Positions 1 through 18,684 of a stretch of 33,770 nucleotides of DNA are shown here, in pieces. This DNA comes from Oceanobacillus luteolus. Lineage in GTDB: Bacteria; Bacillota; Bacilli; Bacillales; Amphibacillaceae. The stretch covers positions 1-33,770 of the forward strand of contig NZ_JAMBON010000037.1 of the NCBI RefSeq assembly GCF_023715655.1. Direction: 5' to 3'. Both the position numbers and the translations under genes were made by a program. The notes below the pieces were generated by a model. The model saw nothing but the letters and a program-made list of their open reading frames with translations. It ran no database searches and had not been told where the DNA came from. Numbering within the stretch: the stretch's first letter is position 1; each line of letters opens with the position of its first letter.

Positions 1-132
1 TTTGATTACATACAAGATAAGCGATTTCCATGCGTAAGTCAAGAACCTACGTTCGTATTCATAAAAGAAAAAAATGAATTATTGACGGTAAAAATAAATC
101 AACATTATGTTTTCATTACTTTATTTGATTGA
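1..132 (+). CDS. C-terminal end of a gene cut by the window edge
   Basis: Frame 1 is open from the first base through 43 codons and ends at TGA (130-132). The residues look protein-like, with mixed charged and aromatic residues such as FVFIKEKNELL, but I recognise no family. Only the tail is visible, so no function can be given. The stop is followed by AT-rich DNA without a clear terminator. A chance open frame of this length in AT-rich DNA is possible, so confidence is limited. Confidence 0.35.
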   Translation, partial: FDYIQDKRFPCVSQEPTFVFIKEKNELLTVKINQHYVFITLFD

Positions 133-210
133 AAAATAACAGTCTAATAATAAATCATGTTGCAAAATTCAATTTGGTTCATAAAAAACTTTTTAAAAAG
201 AATATTAAAA

Positions 211-276
211 AGCTAGAACTGAAGAAAACCTGTAAGTGATCAGCCCTAGCTAACTATATAATCATTGACAAATTTC
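211..276 (+). repeat. Hairpin repeat, copy A
   Basis: This stretch aligns over its length with 3539-3603, in the same orientation, with roughly three quarters of bases identical by eye. Both copies begin AGCTAG, close with CTAGCT about 35 bases later so that they can fold into a hairpin, then continue with a TATATAAT block and TTGACAAATTTC. Copy A runs directly into a GGTGCCAGGCACC palindrome. It has the look of a small non-coding dispersed repeat. Confidence 0.6.
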
Positions 277-293
277 GAGTGGTGCCAGGCACC
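266..293. repeat. Palindromic GGTGCCAGGCACC repeat, copy 1
   Basis: The 13-base palindrome GGTGCCAGGCACC lies at 281-293, preceded by TGACAAATTTCGAGT. The same 28-base block recurs at 947-974 with about three differences. Short palindromes of this kind resemble REP-like elements, but no transposase gene is in this window. Confidence 0.65.
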
Positions 294-340
294 GGATATT
301 TTATTCAAAGCTGTCTCGGAAAAGGCACTGAAGACTTTCG

Positions 341-838
341 TTACTTTTCTACCGAGACTTTATCTGAAAAGAACTGGTCAAAAACAACCTTTGCATATGC
401 CTTCACTTCACGGATTCCACTGTCAATCCGAACTCGAACAAATTCTTTTGAAGTTATCTGCGCTTCCTCGTGCAATTCAACTGTTTCAGGGTCCATTTCC
501 CAATATTTAATTACCTTTTTAATCCCTAATTTGATGCTACCGCTTTTTTCACCAAACCAAGGCCCAAAATCCCATCCATGGTCATTAGAAAAAACTGCTG
601 CTTCCTTAGAGCCACCAACAACTTCTTTTGGCAAGCCAAAAAACTCCCCAGATATTTTATCTGGATTTGCTAATTGAACAAGGTCGTCTGAAATTGTTAA
701 TATCTTTAGCAATTCATAGGAAATATCCGGTCGATCATCTGTTTCAACTAAGTATCCTTTAAGTTTCTCATCAAGATCCTTGCATAGTTCAAGAATTGTT
801 GCAGCAGAATGAACTACAATTGAAGAATAATCGCTCAA
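341..838 (-). CDS. Hypothetical protein, 165 aa
   Basis: I do not recognise this protein. It is acidic, soluble-looking and without a signal peptide or membrane segment. A tryptophan/glycine-rich stretch (DHGWDFGPWFG, about residues 87-97) sits in the middle. The start is TTG at 838, supported by an AAGGAG site 8 bases upstream. No better start with a ribosome site is visible. It is transcribed against the neighbouring ATPase and HNH genes and lies between two copies of the GGTGCCAGGCACC palindrome, which suggests cargo of an accessory region. Coding status is fairly secure because of the ribosome site and residue composition. Confidence 0.6.
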   Translation of the reverse strand: MSDYSSIVVHSAATILELCKDLDEKLKGYLVETDDRPDISYELLKILTISDDLVQLANPDKISGEFFGLPKEVVGGSKEAAVFSNDHGWDFGPWFGEKSGSIKLGIKKVIKYWEMDPETVELHEEAQITSKEFVRVRIDSGIREVKAYAKVVFDQFFSDKVSVEK

Positions 839-946
839 AGTAACCGCTCCTTCTACAATTAATACTTACTAATTGAATCATATCACCCACTTTGGATAGA
901 ATCTATAAATAAATCTAATAAATACATTTTTGCATTCGACATAAAC

Positions 947-974
947 CGACATATTTCGGGTGGTGCCAGGCACC
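947..974. repeat. Palindromic GGTGCCAGGCACC repeat, copy 2
   Basis: The palindrome is at 962-974, preceded by CGACATATTTCGGGT. It is continuous with the beginning of the truncated ATPase frame: the first residues of that frame (MVPGT) are encoded by the repeat itself. This marks the breakpoint where the ATPase gene lost its 5' part. Confidence 0.65.
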
Positions 975-1865
975 CAGAATTATGTAGGGTATGGAAAAAA
1001 AGAACTGTATTTTGAAGTGTCGGAATATGCCCGAAATAGCATTATCGATCGATCTATACAGAGAATAGAGAGAATAGGAAGAAAGTTAAGGGAAAACAAT
1101 AAAGAGTTAATTGATTATATACAAATTGATTCTATTATTCAAAATAAAGTTAAAGAGTATAGTTTTCAACTAAAAAACTTTGGTAATAGATTTGTCACAA
1201 AAGTAGAACGTAACTTATCCAAACTACAAGATAGAAGGTTGAGAGCAGAATATAATATAGAGTATGAAAAAATTATGAATGACAAAATACTATTAGAAAA
1301 TATCGTAATAGAATTAACATTTATTCATGAAAAATTACTTGTAATATCAAGGTTAGCTCAACATGAGTTTAAATCCGGTAGAAGACGTTTAATCAATATC
1401 TCAGATATTGATTTTATATATCCCGGCGGAAGATGCCAGTTAGATAAAGATTTAAAGTTCCTAAGTTTATTTGATATTAATAATCTTGTAACAGATATTT
1501 GGATAGAGCAAAATTTTAATAGAGAGTTATTTCCTATTTCAACTATGAGTTCAGGTGAATTAAGTTTATTAATTAGATTTCTCGATCTATATGAATATGT
1601 TGAGGACGACTCAATTATTTTAATTGATGAACCTGAGACACATTTGCATCCGAAATGGATACGAGAGTATATTGAGAGGATAATCGAAATAATTGGGAAA
1701 AAAAGGTGTCATGTTATTATAGCTACACACTCACCGCTAATAGTATCTGATGTTACTAAAGAATGTATAATAGCCTTTAAAAAAGAAGATAACTATATTT
1801 CACAAATAGACCTCAAAGAAAGAACTTTAGGCATGAATTATGAAGATGTGTTTTGCAAAATATAA
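960..1865 (+). pseudogene. Truncated Septu-type (PtuA-like) ABC/AAA ATPase
   Basis: About 300 residues of an SMC/OLD-like ABC ATPase can be read. Visible are a charged, probably coiled-coil middle (about 30-130), an ABC-signature-like SSGE (197-200), a Walker B with catalytic glutamate in IILIDEPETHLHP (219-231), and a switch histidine in ATHSP (255-259). The N-terminal nucleotide-binding part with Walker A is missing. The frame opens inside the GGTGCCAGGCACC repeat with no ribosome site. The gene also stops early where a hairpin-rich insert begins, and the likely continuation is at 2049-2261. An HNH nuclease gene follows, the arrangement of Septu PtuA-PtuB. ATP binding should be lost without Walker A. 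A shorter unrelated ATPase is possible but less likely. Confidence 0.7.
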
Positions 1866-2055
1866 GTTAAGAGTATTGCAATGGCATACCTCGTTGCAAC
1901 TTTACATGGAGAAGTGGGCATGATAGCCTTGTTAACTTAGCCAAGCCCTTATACGGCTGGCTTCTTGGCTAAATATTCATGCTCACAGAGGCTCCATGTC
2001 AAGTTGCAACATTCTAAACTGTTGCTTGCAAAGTTCTAAAGTTTTGCTTTGCAAA
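1861..2055. mobile_element. Hairpin-rich insert splitting the ATPase gene
   Basis: A non-coding block of about 195 bases separates the two parts of the ATPase frame. Its core folds on itself: GTTGCAACTTTACATGGAG (1893-1911) pairs with 1992-2010 with one mismatch. GTGGGCATGA (1914-1923) pairs with 1977-1986 with one mismatch, and TTAGCCAAG (1937-1945) pairs perfectly with CTTGGCTAA (1964-1972). TTTGCAAAA occurs at both edges (1852-1860 and 2048-2056), as a target duplication or terminal repeat would. Removing exactly 195 bases rejoins the ATPase in frame. Simple removal of one TTTGCAAAA copy with the insert (196 bases) does not, so the exact insertion event is unresolved. It has no ORF and is probably a MITE-like element. 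Confidence 0.5.
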
Positions 2056-2261
2056 ACACAGAAGAGTTATTATCAGAGGTATTCGGACTTGAAGATTACA
2101 AAGGAACAATGATTAATAATTATATTAAAAAGGTAGAACAGTTACTTCAAAATGAAAGAATAGATGAGGCTTTAGAAATTTATAATCAAATAGGGGATAG
2201 TGCTAAGAAATATAATTTATTCAAAAAAATCAAAGATTATATGGGTGAAAAATATGTATAA
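2049..2261 (+). pseudogene. Detached C-terminal piece of the PtuA-like ATPase
   Basis: About 70 residues begin at a TTG with no ribosome site. The segment reads NTEELLSEVFGLEDY followed by helical, charged sequence. The EVFGL.D phrase is the kind of sequence found after the last strand of OLD/RecF-like ATPases, where the upstream frame was interrupted (LGMNYEDVF). It is in the same numerical frame as the upstream piece and its stop codon overlaps the HNH start (ATGTATAA), so it is best read as the 3' end of the ATPase gene. Independent expression is unlikely. Confidence 0.55.
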
Positions 2262-3336
2262 GGTAGAGTGGACTCAGTCTTTACAAGATTTGATAAAGCC
2301 TTATCATGACTTTATTTTAGAGACCTTAGAATTTGTTAATCAAAACCCTAAATTTAGCGTTCAATCTCCTACAGATATCGAAGAATTAACCAATGCTATA
2401 AAATCATTGTCTGAAAACGATTCTTCTAAAGAGAACTTTTCCAAAATAGCTTTAAAAACAGATTTACCTAAGCATATATGTAATTTAAAATATGAAAATA
2501 GAGACTTACTAAATGAATATAAGAACTTTGTGTCAAACTACTATAATTTTTTAAATAAAGACTGGCATGTTACCAGCTCATATTCCAAAGAAGTTAAAGA
2601 TGCTTTTAACTATTTTTACGAAAATCTAATTCATGGCAAGACTTTTAATAAAGAATTTTTAAATAGTGATCTAGATGCTATTCATGAGTTTAGAAGAAAG
2701 TTAGCTTTAAAGAAGACTTGTCCCTATTGTGATCTACATGAAATGGAGTTTGATAGTGCTTCAGTGGATCATTTTATTCCGAAGTCTAAACATCCTATAC
2801 TAGCGATTTATCCAAAAAATTTAGTAGTAGCATGTACAGCATGTAACGATCGTATAAAAAAGGAGCATCTGTATTTACCTATAGTACATCCTTATTTTAC
2901 AAGCCCTAGTGACTATTTTATTTTTGTATATTCACATAAAAACAAGAAAATTACTATTCAATTCAAAACAATGCTTACATTTAAAGATAAACGTAAGTTA
3001 GCAAATTTCTTTAGGCTTTTTAATCTGATCTATCGATATAATACTAATAAAAGTGATTTATACGATAATTTAATACAAGAAATTCAAAAGGGGGTCAATA
3101 AGCAGTTTAAGAGAATGAGAAATCTATCTAGAGAGTTAATTGAAGAAATAATCTTAGAAGAAATTAAAGATAAAGAAAAAGAAGTTAGGGATCGAAAAGG
3201 GATTGAATTTCTAACAAAATTAAAGGCAGATTTGTATACTCAGATAAAAAAAGAAGAATTAAAGTGCTTAGTAGATTACTTTGCAGTTAAGTATGGAATA
3301 GAAAATATATATAGTCAACCTCAAATACAATCTTAA
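2254..3336 (+). CDS. HNH endonuclease, Septu PtuB-like
   Basis: This 360-residue protein has a zinc-bound HNH fold: CPYC (156-159), the catalytic DHFIPKSK (172-179), asparagine 189 and CTACN (194-198). The N-terminal 150 residues and the C-terminal 160 residues are helical and charged and are not recognised. I chose ATG at 2254 because it overlaps the upstream ATPase stop as ATGTATAA, with GGTGA just before it. A longer frame upstream has no ribosome site. In Septu systems an ATPase and an HNH nuclease act together in abortive-type defence. Here the nuclease appears intact while the ATPase is broken, so the pair is probably inactive. It could instead belong to another ATPase-HNH defence family. 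Confidence 0.7.
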   Translation: MYKVEWTQSLQDLIKPYHDFILETLEFVNQNPKFSVQSPTDIEELTNAIKSLSENDSSKENFSKIALKTDLPKHICNLKYENRDLLNEYKNFVSNYYNFLNKDWHVTSSYSKEVKDAFNYFYENLIHGKTFNKEFLNSDLDAIHEFRRKLALKKTCPYCDLHEMEFDSASVDHFIPKSKHPILAIYPKNLVVACTACNDRIKKEHLYLPIVHPYFTSPSDYFIFVYSHKNKKITIQFKTMLTFKDKRKLANFFRLFNLIYRYNTNKSDLYDNLIQEIQKGVNKQFKRMRNLSRELIEEIILEEIKDKEKEVRDRKGIEFLTKLKADLYTQIKKEELKCLVDYFAVKYGIENIYSQPQIQS

Positions 3337-3344
3337 TTTTTTCT

Positions 3345-3367
3345 GGAGATGACAGGCACCCAGAATT
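3345..3367. repeat. Degenerate palindrome copy bounding the ATPase-HNH pair
   Basis: The 15 bases CAGGCACCCAGAATT at 3353-3367 are identical to 967-981. The left half of the palindrome is eroded (GGAGATGACAGGCACC). The segment 967-3367 containing the ATPase and HNH genes is therefore bracketed by a direct repeat. The HNH stop lies immediately upstream, at 3334-3336. Confidence 0.6.
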
Positions 3368-3403
3368 TTTGACAGAGTCTTTTACCAAATATCATAAAAC
3401 CAA

Positions 3404-3474
3404 TTGTAACCGCTAGACTAAAGTGGACAGATTCTACTAGATAGAAATTGGACACTTTAGTTTAGCAGTTACAA
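3404..3474. repeat. Inverted repeat, 22-base arms
   Basis: The arm at 3404-3425 pairs with 3453-3474 with two mismatches, leaving a 27-base loop. The inner ends read CTAAAGTGGACA and TTGGACACTTTAG, which have the flavour of IS3-family termini, but there is no transposase between them. It could be a MITE remnant or a terminator-like hairpin. No U-run follows. Confidence 0.5.
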
Positions 3475-3538
3475 GATTGGCTCTCTCCTTCGCATTCAAC
3501 CGCTCTTATAACATCATTTGTTCCTTTTTAAATGAAAT

Positions 3539-3603
3539 AGCTAGGAACCGAAGACAGCCTATTATTGTTCAGTCCTAGCTTTATATAATAGTTGACAAAT
3601 TTC
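3539..3603 (+). repeat. Hairpin repeat, copy B
   Basis: This is the second copy of the repeat at 211-276, in direct orientation. The outer arms AGCTAGGA and TCCTAGCT are perfect complements. It ends in the same TTGACAAATTTC. The two copies bracket the unknown gene and the ATPase-HNH locus. Confidence 0.6.
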
Positions 3604-3664
3604 AACATGAATTGAAATAATTTGAGTGTTGAGATTATAGAGGAGGTTTTACATTTCTAGAAGT

Positions 3665-3752
3665 TGGCTCTCTAGTCCGCAGAGAGTGGCTCTTTCTTCC
3701 GCAATCACTGGCTCAGATCTCTGCACTCATGGCTTAATTCATCTGCAATAAT
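3665..3752. repeat. Degenerate tandem repeat, unit about 22 nt
   Basis: Four imperfect units begin TGGCTC/TGGCTT at 3665, 3687, 3709 and 3730, with spacings of 22, 22 and 21. The consensus is about TGGCTCTNNNTCCGCANTCA. A lone further unit with the same pattern starts at 3478. No protein is encoded. Function is unknown. Confidence 0.55.
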
Positions 3753-3841
3753 CAATATAACATCTCGGGTATTCTTTCGGTTTTGCTTATAGTTACCTAA
3801 TTGCTCGCCCAAGGGATACAAATAACTTCGTCGATTAAATA

Positions 3842-5584
3842 CTACTTCCCAACAATCTGCTCCACTCTACTGATCACATCTCTCTCCAACTCTTCCAATG
3901 CCTTTTCACTTTCTAGAAGCGAATCCTCTTTCACCCCAAAGTAAAACTTAATTTTCGGTTCTGTTCCAGATGGTCTTAAGCATACCCAAGCACCATCATC
4001 AAGTTTATATTTGATTACATTAGATTTTGGTAAAGTGATATCTTCAGTGTCAGTCGTCACAGAATACGTCCTCACACCGCTTAGATAATCTTCGATTAAT
4101 TGCACCTTTTTACCAGCAATTTCTACTGGAGGGTTATCTCGAAAATTGTTCAAGATAGAGCCAATTTGTTCTACTCCATCTTTTCCTTTCAATGTAAGAG
4201 ATACCAAGTTCTCACGATAGTAACCATATGTTTCATATAGTTCTATCAATCCTTCGTATAAGGTTTTATCGTTGGACTTATAATAAGCTGCTACTTCAGC
4301 TATTAACAAGCATGTTTGGATTGCATCTTTATCACGCACAAAGTCTCCAATAAGATAGCCATAACTCTCTTCATAACCAAACAGAAACCTTCTATCGCCA
4401 GTTTCCTCAAAGTTCTTGATCCATTCACTGATGTATTTAAAACCAGTAAGTGTATCGATGGTATCTAATCCATTTGCTGAAGCAATATCTCGGCCCATTT
4501 CTGAAGTAACAATTGTCTTTAATACAGTAGCGTTCGAATGTAACGTCCCTTGTTTTTTCTTTTCTTGGATAAGATAATGTAGAAGTAATGCTCCTACCTG
4601 ATTTCCTGTTAGCACCTGATATTCACCATTATTATTTCTTACCGCTACACCAACGCGATCTGCATCCGGATCGGTTCCAAGTAAAATATCAGCATTAGAC
4701 TTTTCACCATATTGGATTGCCAGTTCAAATGCAGCATGTTCCTCTGGATTTGGTGAGTGGACAGTCGAGAAATTAGGATCCGGCATTTCTTGTTCCTTGA
4801 CCACTTCGATATTCTTGAATCCAATAGATTCTAAACCTTTTCTCACCGGGATATTTCCTGTTCCATGAAGAGGTGTATAAACAATACGGAAGTCATCTGC
4901 AACATCTTGTATGACCTGTGGATTTACTATAATCGTTTGTAGTTGTTGAAGATAAGCTCTGTCCACAATTTCACCAATTGAGACTAATAAGCCTTCCTTC
5001 TTCAAGTCTTCCTCATTTGCAACAGCTACCGATAATTCATCTTTTACTTCATTCACTTTTTCAATAATCTTATCTGCGGCATCTGATGAAAGCTGCGCAC
5101 CATCTGGACCATACACTTTAAAACCATTGTATTCTTTTGGATTATGACTTGCAGTAATTACTACCCCGCTATAAGCATGTAAATACCTTACTGAAAAGGA
5201 CAACTGCGGAGTTGCACGCAATGACTCAAACACATAAGTTTGAATACCATGTGCACCTAATGTCTTGGCTGTTTCCAACGCAAATTCCGGGGACATGTGA
5301 CGTGAATCATAGGCAATGACAACTCCACGGCTTTTTGCTTCCTCACCATTTTCTTCTATGTAACGCGCAAGACCTTCAGCTGTCTTACGGATTGTATAGA
5401 TGTTCATTCGATTCGTACCTGGACCAAGTTCTCCACGCATTCCACCTGTACCGAATTCAAGGTGTTTATAAAAACAATCTTCTATTTGTTTTTCATCGCT
5501 CTCCATCTCATTAAGTTGATTACTTAATTCTAAATCCAACTTTACAAATTCATTCCATTTTTTATAATTTGTTTGCCAAGCCAA
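3842..5584 (-). CDS. pgcA: Alpha-phosphoglucomutase (phosphohexomutase family)
   Basis: The 580-residue protein interconverts glucose-6-phosphate and glucose-1-phosphate in the cytosol, feeding GalU. Motifs include the phosphoserine loop [11 protein letters not shown] (Ser about 146), the metal loop DPDADR (about 305-310), the sugar loop GYEESYGY and the C-terminal phosphate-binding RPSGTEPK. The start is taken as TTG at 5584: GAGG lies 8 bases upstream and the protein then opens with the family-typical AWQTNYKKW. An in-frame GTG at 5665 adds 27 unrelated residues, has no ribosome site and reads through a perfect palindrome. It is the last gene of the minus-strand polysaccharide series, downstream of UDP-glucose dehydrogenase. 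Confidence 0.9.
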
Positions 5585-5610
5585 TCGGGTAACCTCACTT
5601 CTATAATTAA

Positions 5611-5632
5611 ACCCCAATCCATGGATTGGGGT
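5611..5632 (-). terminator. Perfect 22-bp palindrome between ugd and pgcA
   Basis: This is a perfect palindrome centred on CCATGG with 11-base arms (ACCCCAATCCA). It is followed on the minus strand by TTTAATTATAG and on the plus strand by TTGTTTTGATTTT. It lies between the ugd stop and the pgcA ribosome site. It may act as a terminator or partial attenuator, or protect mRNA ends; the tails are weak. Confidence 0.45.
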
Positions 5633-5679
5633 TGTTTTGATTTTAGTGTATAAACTAACGTCCACTGGATTATTACATC

Positions 5680-6846
5680 TTAATCCCTGCTAAACACATC
5701 TCTTGTATAAACTTTATCCTTCACAACTTGTAACTCATCTGACATTCGGTTGGCAATAATTACATCTGATAGCTGTTTGAATGTATCAAAATCACTTATT
5801 ACTTTATGTCCTTCAAATGTATCTTCTGTAAGTGTAGGTTCAAATATAACTAACTCAATTCCTTTATCTTTTAATTGCTCTATAACACCTTGTATAGCTG
5901 ATTGACGGAAGTTATCGGATCCGGATTTCATAATTAGACGGTAGATACCGACTACTTGAGGGTTCCTCTTGGCAATAGTGTCTGCAATATATTCTTTTCT
6001 TGTCTCATTGGAATCAACAATTGCTTGAACAATATTATTTGGAATACCTTCAAAATCAGCAAGTAACTGTTTCGTATCTTTCGGTAAGCAATAGCCACCA
6101 TAACCAAAAGAAGGATTATTATAATGTGATCCGATTCGTGGATCTAATCCAACTCCTTCAATGATCTGTTGAGTATTCAGCCCGTTCATCTCTGCATATG
6201 TATCTAATTCATTAAAGTAAGAAACACGCATAGCCAGGTAAGTATTTGCAAATAATTTAATTGCTTCTGCTTCCGTTGAATCAGTCAATATAACTGGAAT
6301 ATCTTCCTTAATTGCACCTTCAACTAATAGGTTAGCAAACTTTTGTGCCCGTTCGGATTGCTCGCCTACAATGATTCGAGATGGATATAAGTTATCATAC
6401 AATGCTCGACCTTCTCTTAAAAATTCTGGAGAGAAAATAATGTTGTCTGTATTAAATTTTTCACGGATTGTCTTCGTATATCCTACTGGAACCGTTGATT
6501 TAATAACCATGACCGCATTCGGATTCACGTTAATGACATTTTCAATTACTGATTCGACTGAGCTTGTGTCAAAATAGTCTTTTTCAGGATCGTAGTTTGT
6601 TGGTGTTGAAATAATTACAAACTCTGCATCCTTCAGAGCTACCACAGAATCCGTAGTTGCTTTTAAATTCAGGTTCTTCGTTTTTAAAAAGTCTTGAATT
6701 TCTGAATCAGCTATCGGAGCCTTTTTATTATTGATCATTTCTACTTTTTCTTGAATGATATCTAATGCAATGACTTCATTATGTTGGGCTAGAAGGACTG
6801 CGTTGGATAGACCAACGTAACCTGTGCCTGCGACGGTGATTTTCAC
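5680..6846 (-). CDS. ugd: UDP-glucose 6-dehydrogenase
   Basis: This enzyme oxidises UDP-glucose to UDP-glucuronate with two NAD+. The 388 residues match the short bacterial Ugd/HasB/TuaD type. The N-terminal Rossmann motif is GTGYVGL (7-13), followed by STPTNY (80-85), the SPEFLREG loop with Glu141, Lys197 in [10 protein letters not shown], and the catalytic Cys253 in [15 protein letters not shown]. The GTG start at 6846 has AGGAG 8 bases upstream. It lies just after the UDP-glucuronate 4-epimerase-like gene, so UDP-GlcA made here is the likely substrate of that neighbour. Confidence 0.92.
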
Positions 6847-17472: not shown

Positions 17473-18684
17473 TCAAGTAATTATATTTTTGAAATTCTCT
17501 ACCACATAAAGCACTTCTTCATCACTTAATTGAGTATGCAACGGTAGTGTAACTTCATTAATATATTGGTTATACGCATTTGGATAATCATTAATATCAA
17601 AACCAAGATTTCTATAGGCTGTAAACATTGGTAATGGCTTATAGTGAACATTACAAGCAATACCCACTTCAGCCATTCTCGAAATAATTTCATTTCTTTT
17701 CTTTTCACTAATACCATGAATTCTTGTTAAATATAAATGTCCAGAAGAGGAATAGTTTTCACCATGATGCTCTAACACCTGTACATTTAAAGAGGATAAA
17801 TAACTGTCATATAATTCGATAATTTGCTTACGTCGTTTTAATAAATCATTATAACGGGCCAATTGTATTAAACCGATACTCGCACTGATATCTGTCATAT
17901 TACACTTATAAGCAGGATAAAGAATATCGTATTCCCATGAACCTTTTTGAGTTTTAGCAAGTGCATCTTTTGATTGACCATGAAGACTATACAACATAAA
18001 CTGATTGTATAATCTATTATCGTCTATCCCACGATCATTACGCCATACAACAGCTCCACCCTCTGCCGTTGTGAGATTTTTTACAGCATGGAATGAAAAA
18101 CAAGTAAAGTCAGCTGCTTGCCCACAATTCAAACCATTACTTTGTGCACCAAAAGCATGTGCAGCATCTGCCAAAACTACTATCCTATTGAATAGTTTTT
18201 GTAGATCATTATTCGATTTATACAATTCCTTTTTACTATTTATAATCTCGTAAATGGTATCATAATCACACATTTTGCCACCAATATCCACAGGTATAAT
18301 AGCTTTAGTTCTATCTGTAATTGCATTGGAAAGCTTTGAATAATCCATTTCAAATGAATTTGGAGCAGTATCTACTAAAACAATTTTTGCCCCAACATGT
18401 TCAATTACTGACGCAGATGCTGTGTATGTATAAGCAGAAGTAATAACTTCGTCTCCTGGACCGACCCCGAGAATCCTTAGTGTAAGTTCCATAGATGCAG
18501 TTGCAGAATTTAAACAGACGGCTTTGTTTACTCCTACAAATTCAGCTATTCTTTTTTCAAACTCTTTAGTTCGTGGTCCAGTTGTTATCCATCCCGATTT
18601 TAAAGATTTTACGACCTCTTCAATCTCCTCATCCGAAATATCAGGGGGAGAAAAAGGTATATTCCTGAACTCTATATTTTTCAT
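17473..18684 (-). CDS. DegT/DnrJ/EryC1/StrS-type sugar aminotransferase
   Basis: A 403-residue PLP enzyme. It shows GWITTGPRTKEFE at the entrance, CLNSATASMEL (phosphate binding), LADAAHAFGA with Asp173, and the PLP-binding Lys202 in FSFHAVKNLTTAEGG. Such enzymes transaminate nucleotide-linked keto sugars made by 4,6-dehydratases. A PglF/EpsC-type dehydratase is two genes upstream and a formyltransferase immediately downstream, consistent with a UDP-4-amino-4,6-dideoxy-HexNAc intermediate. The ribosome site GAGG lies about 7 bases before the ATG. Confidence 0.88.
   Translation of the reverse strand: MKNIEFRNIPFSPPDISDEEIEEVVKSLKSGWITTGPRTKEFEKRIAEFVGVNKAVCLNSATASMELTLRILGVGPGDEVITSAYTYTASASVIEHVGAKIVLVDTAPNSFEMDYSKLSNAITDRTKAIIPVDIGGKMCDYDTIYEIINSKKELYKSNNDLQKLFNRIVVLADAAHAFGAQSNGLNCGQAADFTCFSFHAVKNLTTAEGGAVVWRNDRGIDDNRLYNQFMLYSLHGQSKDALAKTQKGSWEYDILYPAYKCNMTDISASIGLIQLARYNDLLKRRKQIIELYDSYLSSLNVQVLEHHGENYSSSGHLYLTRIHGISEKKRNEIISRMAEVGIACNVHYKPLPMFTAYRNLGFDINDYPNAYNQYINEVTLPLHTQLSDEEVLYVVENFKNIIT

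Follow-up and report, generated by a model that had tools for sequence, protein, structure and literature searches.

What left an intact HNH endonuclease gene standing behind a broken ATPase gene, and what is the element that interrupts the latter? We addressed this question at a locus of Oceanobacillus luteolus on contig NZ_JAMBON010000037.1, the whole of which (33,770 bp) is the window analysed here, from draft assembly GCF_023715655.1 with its 206 contigs. The locus consists of a truncated ABC-type ATPase gene, an HNH gene directly downstream, and a 214-bp non-autonomous transposon, a miniature inverted-repeat transposable element (MITE), lying within the ATPase gene and carrying a 127-nt folded core (Table 1). 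We hold with considerable confidence that a Septu-like operon, probably acquired horizontally, was broken twice, probably recently, and that the core of the insert is a conserved strand-specific module. A first-pass annotation made from the sequence had recognised the defence pair; the insert, which it did not identify, is the more unusual of the two objects.

An ATPase–HNH pair broken twice

The ATPase fragment carries the signature SSGELS, the Walker B motif ILIDEPETHLHP and the switch histidine in ATHSP, and each of these motifs contains invariant columns in a 15-row alignment including the window protein. Walker A, which reads GENGTAKT or GENGTGKT in the aligned relatives, is missing, and the alignment thereby confirmed the motif inventory of the first-pass annotation. 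The homologous stretch starts at about position 981 and aligns from residue ~155 of P0002, the closest relative (501 aa; E 2e-141, 80% identity over 98% of the fragment); the gene lacks its first ~150 codons, Walker A among them, and the break lies at a REP-like (repetitive extragenic palindrome-like) sequence. Beyond the insert, positions 2052–2258 were 90% identical to residues 433–501 of P0002 by tblastn. The homologues, 271 at E ≤ 0.001 among 1788 candidates with the window protein included, are mostly 430–520 aa long going by the 120 listed, and 19 of the 20 best-listed (window excluded) measure 486–526 aa, the remaining one (349 aa) being named partial. An intact family of about 300 residues without Walker A, which the first-pass annotation had named as the outcome that would overturn it, did not appear among these homologues, and the aligned relatives possess Walker A. 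The profile searches suggested by that annotation matched the fragment to PtuA models and to the C-terminal parts of AAA_21 and AAA_15, and the HNH protein to PDC-M01B and PtuB. The best PADLOC PtuA score of the fragment was 107.3 bits, compared with 118–120 bits for intact relatives (111–118 with PDC-M01A models), and the retron I-A PtuA in the PDB matched it at E 3e-14. Judged by these matches, the fragment is a decayed member of an intact ~500-residue PtuA-like ATPase family.

The HNH gene, in contrast to its broken partner, has kept an open frame as first described, with CPYC, DHFIPKSK and CTACN all present and their key residues invariant in a 19-row alignment including the window. The two genes overlap by 8 nt, from the HNH ATG to the ATPase stop, an arrangement also found in three of four relatives' loci. 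The search returned 27 hits among 4471 candidates (window protein included), the best relative being a 360-aa protein at E 4e-206 and 87% identity. In the four neighbourhoods of HNH relatives that we inspected (Bacillus sp. V5-8f, Fictibacillus barbaricus, Paenibacillus tyrfis and a Priestia megaterium plasmid), an ATPase of 504–514 aa lay directly upstream each time, contrary to the other adverse outcome named at the start, namely best HNH matches outside ATPase–HNH pairs. Within the genus (28 genomes) we found the genome's own copy and a single weak match (E 2e-5), and at E ≤ 0.001 the order had matches in 14 of the 397 genomes, counting this one, the next best at E 8e-22. Relatives elsewhere comprised three loci in genome contigs and four plasmid records, one covering most of the query; viral contigs yielded none, and no phage record matched. 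Presence in just the window's genome among the 28 of the genus fits horizontal gain. The predicted model of the HNH protein (predicted local distance difference test, pLDDT, 80.8) found nothing at E ≤ 0.001 in a PDB fold search, and the best HNH chain among the matches listed had a template modelling (TM) score of 0.18 by query.

Whether the pair deserves the name Septu depends largely on the HNH partner. The window shares with Septu (PtuA–PtuB) and PDC-M01 the ATPase-then-HNH order, a PtuA-like ATPase, C-x2-C pairs in the HNH protein and overlapping genes; both an ATPase similar to PtuA and an adjacent HNH protein with C-x2-C, H and C-x2-C-N are present. Two Septu features are absent: Walker A in the ATPase, and an HNH partner most similar to PtuB. 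The HNH protein instead scored 67.6 bits with PDC-M01B versus 46.5 bits with PtuB (PADLOC), three relatives ranked likewise, and the best PtuB chain in the PDB by sequence reached just E 0.28. It also stands apart in being ~360 aa long and in having ~150 residues ahead of its HNH motif, and the broken ATPase sets the window apart from Septu and PDC-M01 alike. Because the HNH protein scores higher with PDC-M01B than with PtuB, the Septu gene order claimed at first holds as a decayed ATPase–HNH pair of Septu-like type, and the strict label Septu is, on these profile scores, not earned. PDC-x names denote unpublished candidate systems, and PDC-M01 calls duplicating Septu calls are reported in the excerpted text of PMC11811056.

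Two events account for the state of the ATPase gene. Its GTG start lies, as first noted, inside the palindromic repeat at 954–981, whose 13-mer core has three exact copies in the assembly, two in the window (the other at 273–300) and one on contig G000:C153; a deletion at or by this repeat would have removed the 5′ part of the gene. The second event is the insert, which adds an in-frame stop to the C-terminal part; what had been described as a hairpin-rich sequence splitting the gene again proved to be a MITE occupying 1847–2060. Because the frame is open up to the insert and changes at conserved columns are few, both breaks are probably recent. At 78 conserved ATPase columns the window deviates five times, four in common with its closest relative and once alone, and at 68 conserved HNH columns three times, once in common with its closest relative and twice alone, so that at such columns it departs hardly more than that relative does. 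These few changes, together with the identity of the insert to its other copy, fit the very recent loss that the first-pass annotation had offered as one possibility. The private changes at all positions weigh on the other side, since they exceed those of the closest relative (11 versus 7 in the ATPase, 13 versus 6 in the HNH protein), and from this excess some relaxation is possible, the HNH gene included.

It is very improbable that the truncated ATPase, the HNH protein or both keep a function. The intact HNH frame with its catalytic residues, and an ATPase frame open up to the insert, would suit such retention, but openness is equally well explained by recent loss, Walker A is missing and the ATPase is split; mutations in Walker A/B or in H-N-H abolish Septu immunity according to the excerpt of PMC13096335, both motif sets thus being needed in the Septu studied there. 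The remaining role once suggested for the nuclease found no positive evidence at the locus. Nor does its survival appear unexpected, as had been proposed: in the excerpt of PMC11555353, PtuA or PtuB of retron-Eco7 singly caused no growth arrest and the pair together arrested growth. An orphan HNH gene is not surprising since PtuA and PtuB singly do not arrest growth and mutants of either lose immunity in these excerpts. Because both partners are needed in the studied relatives, the pair would, by analogy, no longer defend, and the HNH protein alone would be harmless. We consider it just as improbable that a misassembly at a short repeat close to the contig end produced the N-terminal break. 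The assembly is a draft of many contigs, of which the window is one in full, and ~1 kb separates the break from the contig end, all of which would allow for such an error; however, the repeat core has just the three exact copies, and P0002 as query found just the window's two pieces in the assembly and not the missing part.

The insert and the fold of its core

Short, devoid of a transposase gene, bounded by terminal inverted repeats and a target-site duplication, and present in more than one copy, the insert has the properties of a MITE. Its second copy (G000:C11:27011–27224) is 100% identical over 214 bp and is flanked by a different 5-bp duplication. No full-length insertion sequence (IS) with the same ends was found: a search of the draft assembly for the exact 13-bp end returned nothing beyond the two MITEs. 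BLAST with the insert gave matches in 11 of the 28 genomes of the genus, own included; outside its own genome they are partial and cover mainly the middle, and these middle matches sit in differing surroundings. We take bcr1 of the Bacillus cereus group to be a comparable bacterial MITE. Compared by their features rather than their sequences, the insert and bcr1-type MITEs are alike in being small, non-autonomous and foldable with short target duplications, and differ in that the core of the insert is common to full IS of more than one transposase family.

As single-stranded DNA the insert folds at −47.5 kcal/mol, compared with −25.2 kcal/mol (standard deviation (sd) 3.2) for shuffled sequences. 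Comparative evidence for the fold came from two alignments. In the first, 12 core sequences picked by BLAST and motif were aligned by MAFFT before any model existed; 88.2% of 399 cells were paired and 20 of 34 pairs had double-sided changes, a result that none of 500 shuffles equalled. The larger alignment began with 64 sequences found by model or motif, of which 50 remained after removal of near-duplicates and 49 after one odd hit was dropped; here 92.4% of 1561 cells were paired and 24 of 32 pairs had double-sided changes (0/500 shuffles as high). Sliding the partners by 1–3 columns lowered pairing in the 49 sequences to 28–38% of cells. These compensatory changes point to long selection on the fold. 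From the outside inwards it has a first stem, interrupted by a conserved mismatch, then an internal loop containing AGAGG and a second stem, which leads to a junction bearing two hairpins, one short and one longer; AGAGG, the C at the mismatch and TA..T at the junction are among the unpaired letters kept in at least 44 of the 49 sequences. The 5′ strand of the longer hairpin pairs with either of two tandem 3′ copies (about 1935–1975), and both alternative pairings track it across the 49 sequences (0/200 shuffles each), as if the hairpin could switch; its helix is the weakest on the alignment, with 75.3% of cells paired. A pseudoknot of junction letters with the apical repeat was considered and rejected, pairing 68.8% of cells versus 87.8% for the small hairpin, which fits better. 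Non-Watson–Crick cells in the outer stems numbered 49 G-T versus 6 A-C (37 versus 17 in the hairpins), and because G-T far exceeds A-C there, the fold acts on one strand. Rfam 15 gave no match to the core up to E 1 (window positions 1–6000), and in ten related loci its sole match was a pemK site outside the core.

Distribution of the core and its association with insertion sequences

A covariance model of the core (R1, 127 positions) was searched at E ≤ 1e-4 within the order and E ≤ 1e-5 across the phylum. It was found in 146 of 397 sampled genomes of the order, spread over 83 of 136 genera, with E ≤ 1e-10 in all except 18 genomes; at most eight candidates were scored per genome, so that copy numbers are lower bounds. 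Across the phylum 23 of 398 genomes matched, two in the order, one elsewhere in the class and 20 in other classes, with the proviso that the antisense strand of true sites reaches 31.5 bits and very weak hits need care. BLAST with the core found 12 plasmid records, among them an Aliarcobacter and an Aeromonas plasmid, and no phage record; an 18-mer of the core was present in five viral contigs.

Two of the plasmid settings may be described individually. On the Aliarcobacter butzleri plasmid NZ_CP104333.1 (L147:2491–2618) the core is flanked by an erm(B) leader and by aph(3′)-IIIa, within a multi-resistance region. On the Metabacillus plasmid NZ_CP088246.1 (L153:2496–2622) a replication initiator gene on the same strand precedes it by ~490 bp and is the sole feature listed in that 5.1-kb stretch, where the gene table is incomplete.

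Multicopy genomes revealed what carries the core. In three of them the repeated unit was 215–228 bp, a MITE, and in three others a full IS of 1.37–1.57 kb with the hairpin inside, encoding Transposase_mut (IS256) in G225 and rve/HTH_21 proteins in G202 and G276, which are read as IS3. We then examined transposases around 72 sampled loci (29 best matches, 40 further ones from the listing and three multicopy IS; 1–3 per genome). Transposases of the listed kinds lay within 400 bp at 25 of them, a figure that is not an unbiased rate because the transposase queries came from the same sample, plus one from L125. IS3 matches occurred at 14 loci, and in all 11 cases within 200 bp the hairpin was 3′ of the gene on the transposase strand, 6–173 bases after the matched region. 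Next to IS256 transposases the hairpin was likewise 3′ of the gene, on the opposite strand (6/6). The single IS30, IS66, UPF0236 (ISLre2) and IS21 neighbours had it 3′ and antisense, and one Mu_C-type transposase had it at its 5′ side; at the IS21 and Mu_C loci an end search found a MITE-sized unit. Carriers beyond IS3 and IS256 are possible. Among 64 open reading frames (ORFs) near the 48 other loci, no transposase was found among the 25 most frequent of 87 Pfam families. Three cases outside the order agree with the IS3 pattern: in L200 and L208 the hairpin follows an rve-type transposase gene, and on the Aeromonas plasmid an annotated IS3 gene, each time on the same strand. Inverted ends starting with TG together with a target duplication of at least 5 bp were present at 16 of the 72 loci; with right flanks swapped, the count averaged 0.17 and never exceeded 1.

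Taken together, these comparisons of sequence show the core to be a conserved, strand-specific folded module of MITEs, IS3 and IS256 elements that many genomes of the Bacillota carry, with an orientation to the transposase that is fixed in each family. Three points detract from this picture: the 49 aligned sequences were selected by motif or model, the transposase queries were drawn from loci of the sample itself, apart from the one from L125, and three of the 14 IS3 matches, all more than 200 bp away, break the orientation pattern. While the broken defence pair represents ordinary defence-gene turnover, the insert matters more, as one fold is found across unrelated transposase families and kept by compensatory changes over many genera.

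Possible roles of the module

Our leading guess, a tentative one, is that the core, as single-stranded DNA, serves as a loading site when the host replicates the element during transposition. IS911 belongs to the IS3 family. For ISCth4 of the IS256 family and for IS30, the excerpts of PMC7780238 and PMC9333248 describe copy-out/paste-in transposition, in which the host replicates a figure-eight intermediate, and cite IS911 for the replication step. Loading of host machinery on single-stranded DNA is suggested because a strand-specific folded site is common to copy-out elements. During copying of a replicative transposon, the folded single-stranded module would recruit a host factor, most plausibly the replication machinery, and a MITE would be the minimal element keeping the ends and the module, mobilised in trans by a transposase recognising TGT...ACA ends. 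In its widest form, and just as tentatively, one module may be a common accessory of unrelated replicative IS (IS3, IS256 and perhaps IS30, IS66 and UPF0236-type elements) and their MITEs throughout the Bacillota, loading host replication or other conserved machinery onto the transposition intermediate. The plasmid pAMbeta1 carries a known primosome assembly site, ssiA, according to the excerpt of PMC5703833, and the loading site favoured here would resemble it as a strand-specific folded site, with the Metabacillus copy downstream of a replication initiator. Several results weigh against it. The best R1 match over the whole of pAMbeta1 had E 0.18 (18176–18212), and none was found up to E 10 between repE and the next gene (2704–3243); in pUB110 and pTA1060, whose rolling-circle single-strand origins were a further candidate for homology, the best match had E 0.19 (8600 of 8737 bases of pTA1060 searched). 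R1 matches none of the three plasmids. The replication idea proceeds by analogy only, and a simple copy-out scheme does not account for a module that sits 3′ of the gene in both families yet occupies opposite strands in IS3 and IS256.

Only slightly less likely is a regulatory RNA acting in stability or in the control of transposition: in IS3 the core would form the 3′ terminus of the transposase transcript, and in IS256 it would be a small RNA, antisense or free. The strand-specific fold with its many G-U cells, the hairpin's place on the IS3 transposase strand shortly after the gene at the 11 near loci, and a 5′ strand with two alternative partners, both covarying, as a switch might have, all accord with an RNA. 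The antisense hairpin in all six IS256 cases and beside the single IS30, IS66 and UPF0236 neighbours does not, and because of it a role in the mRNA cannot be general; the lack of an Rfam match also speaks against an RNA. Structured RNAs at IS ends include the omega RNA of IS200/IS605 and the bridge RNA of IS110, which have in common with the core a conserved fold in the non-coding end of an IS. To our knowledge, each such conserved non-coding fold belongs to a single transposase family, whereas the core occurs with unrelated DDE families, on one strand in IS3 and on the other in IS256. It is rather unlikely that the hairpin is a small mobile or spreading unit, similar to REP sequences and their associated tyrosine transposases (REP/RAYT), that lands beside IS genes and has no role for them. 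Its many contexts, plasmids among them, would suit such a passenger, as would the 47 of 72 loci without a listed transposase within 400 bp, a count that also tells against the module as an IS component; however, orientation is family-specific and spacing tight in IS3 and IS256, each repeated unit observed is a complete MITE or a complete IS, and the compensatory changes imply long selection on the fold. Whichever function holds, and the single-stranded loading site remains our first choice, a module common to copy-out elements offers a concrete, testable site. Among the titles listed in literature searches on IS with structured RNA, copy-out replication or conserved IS structure, none described the module, and none of the seven papers containing 12–14-mers of the core was on transposons, judged by title.

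Other features of the window

Table 1 Positions of the features of the locus within the window.
Feature	Position	Strand	Details
REP-like palindromic repeat	954–981	+	exact core GGTGCCAGGCACC at 962–974; holds ATPase GTG start
Truncated ABC-type (AAA_21/PtuA-like) ATPase ORF	960–1865	+	301 aa, GTG start; final codons are insert sequence
Left target-site duplication, 5 bp	1842–1846	+	
Non-autonomous transposon (MITE), 214 bp	1847–2060	+	in ATPase gene; 13-bp perfect inverted ends 1847–1859 and 2048–2060
Folded core of insert, 127 nt (model R1)	1889–2015	+	common to IS3 and IS256 elements and other MITEs
Right target-site duplication, 5 bp	2061–2065	+	
ATPase C-terminal remainder	2061–2261	+	same frame; continuation ORF 2049–2261
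Intact HNH endonuclease gene	2254–3336	+	360 aa; ORF open from 2200, ATG at 2254
Degenerate REP-like repeat copy	3340–3367	+	just 3′ of HNH stop

A promoter for the HNH gene inside the insert was considered and rejected, its two promoter-like sites scoring 9 of 12 and lying on the minus strand; promoter-like sites in 850–3480 as a whole numbered 22, versus 15.2 (sd 3.5) in shuffles. An inverted repeat further 3′ of the HNH gene, at 3404–3474, has 33-nt arms, 82% complementary, around a 5-nt loop. The genes beyond, on the opposite strand, read, from their ORFs, like an exopolysaccharide cluster. The third exact copy of the REP-like core (L011:1494–1513; G000:C153:7066–7078) seems, by eye, to lie within a coding region, and the repeat may therefore have truncated another gene too.

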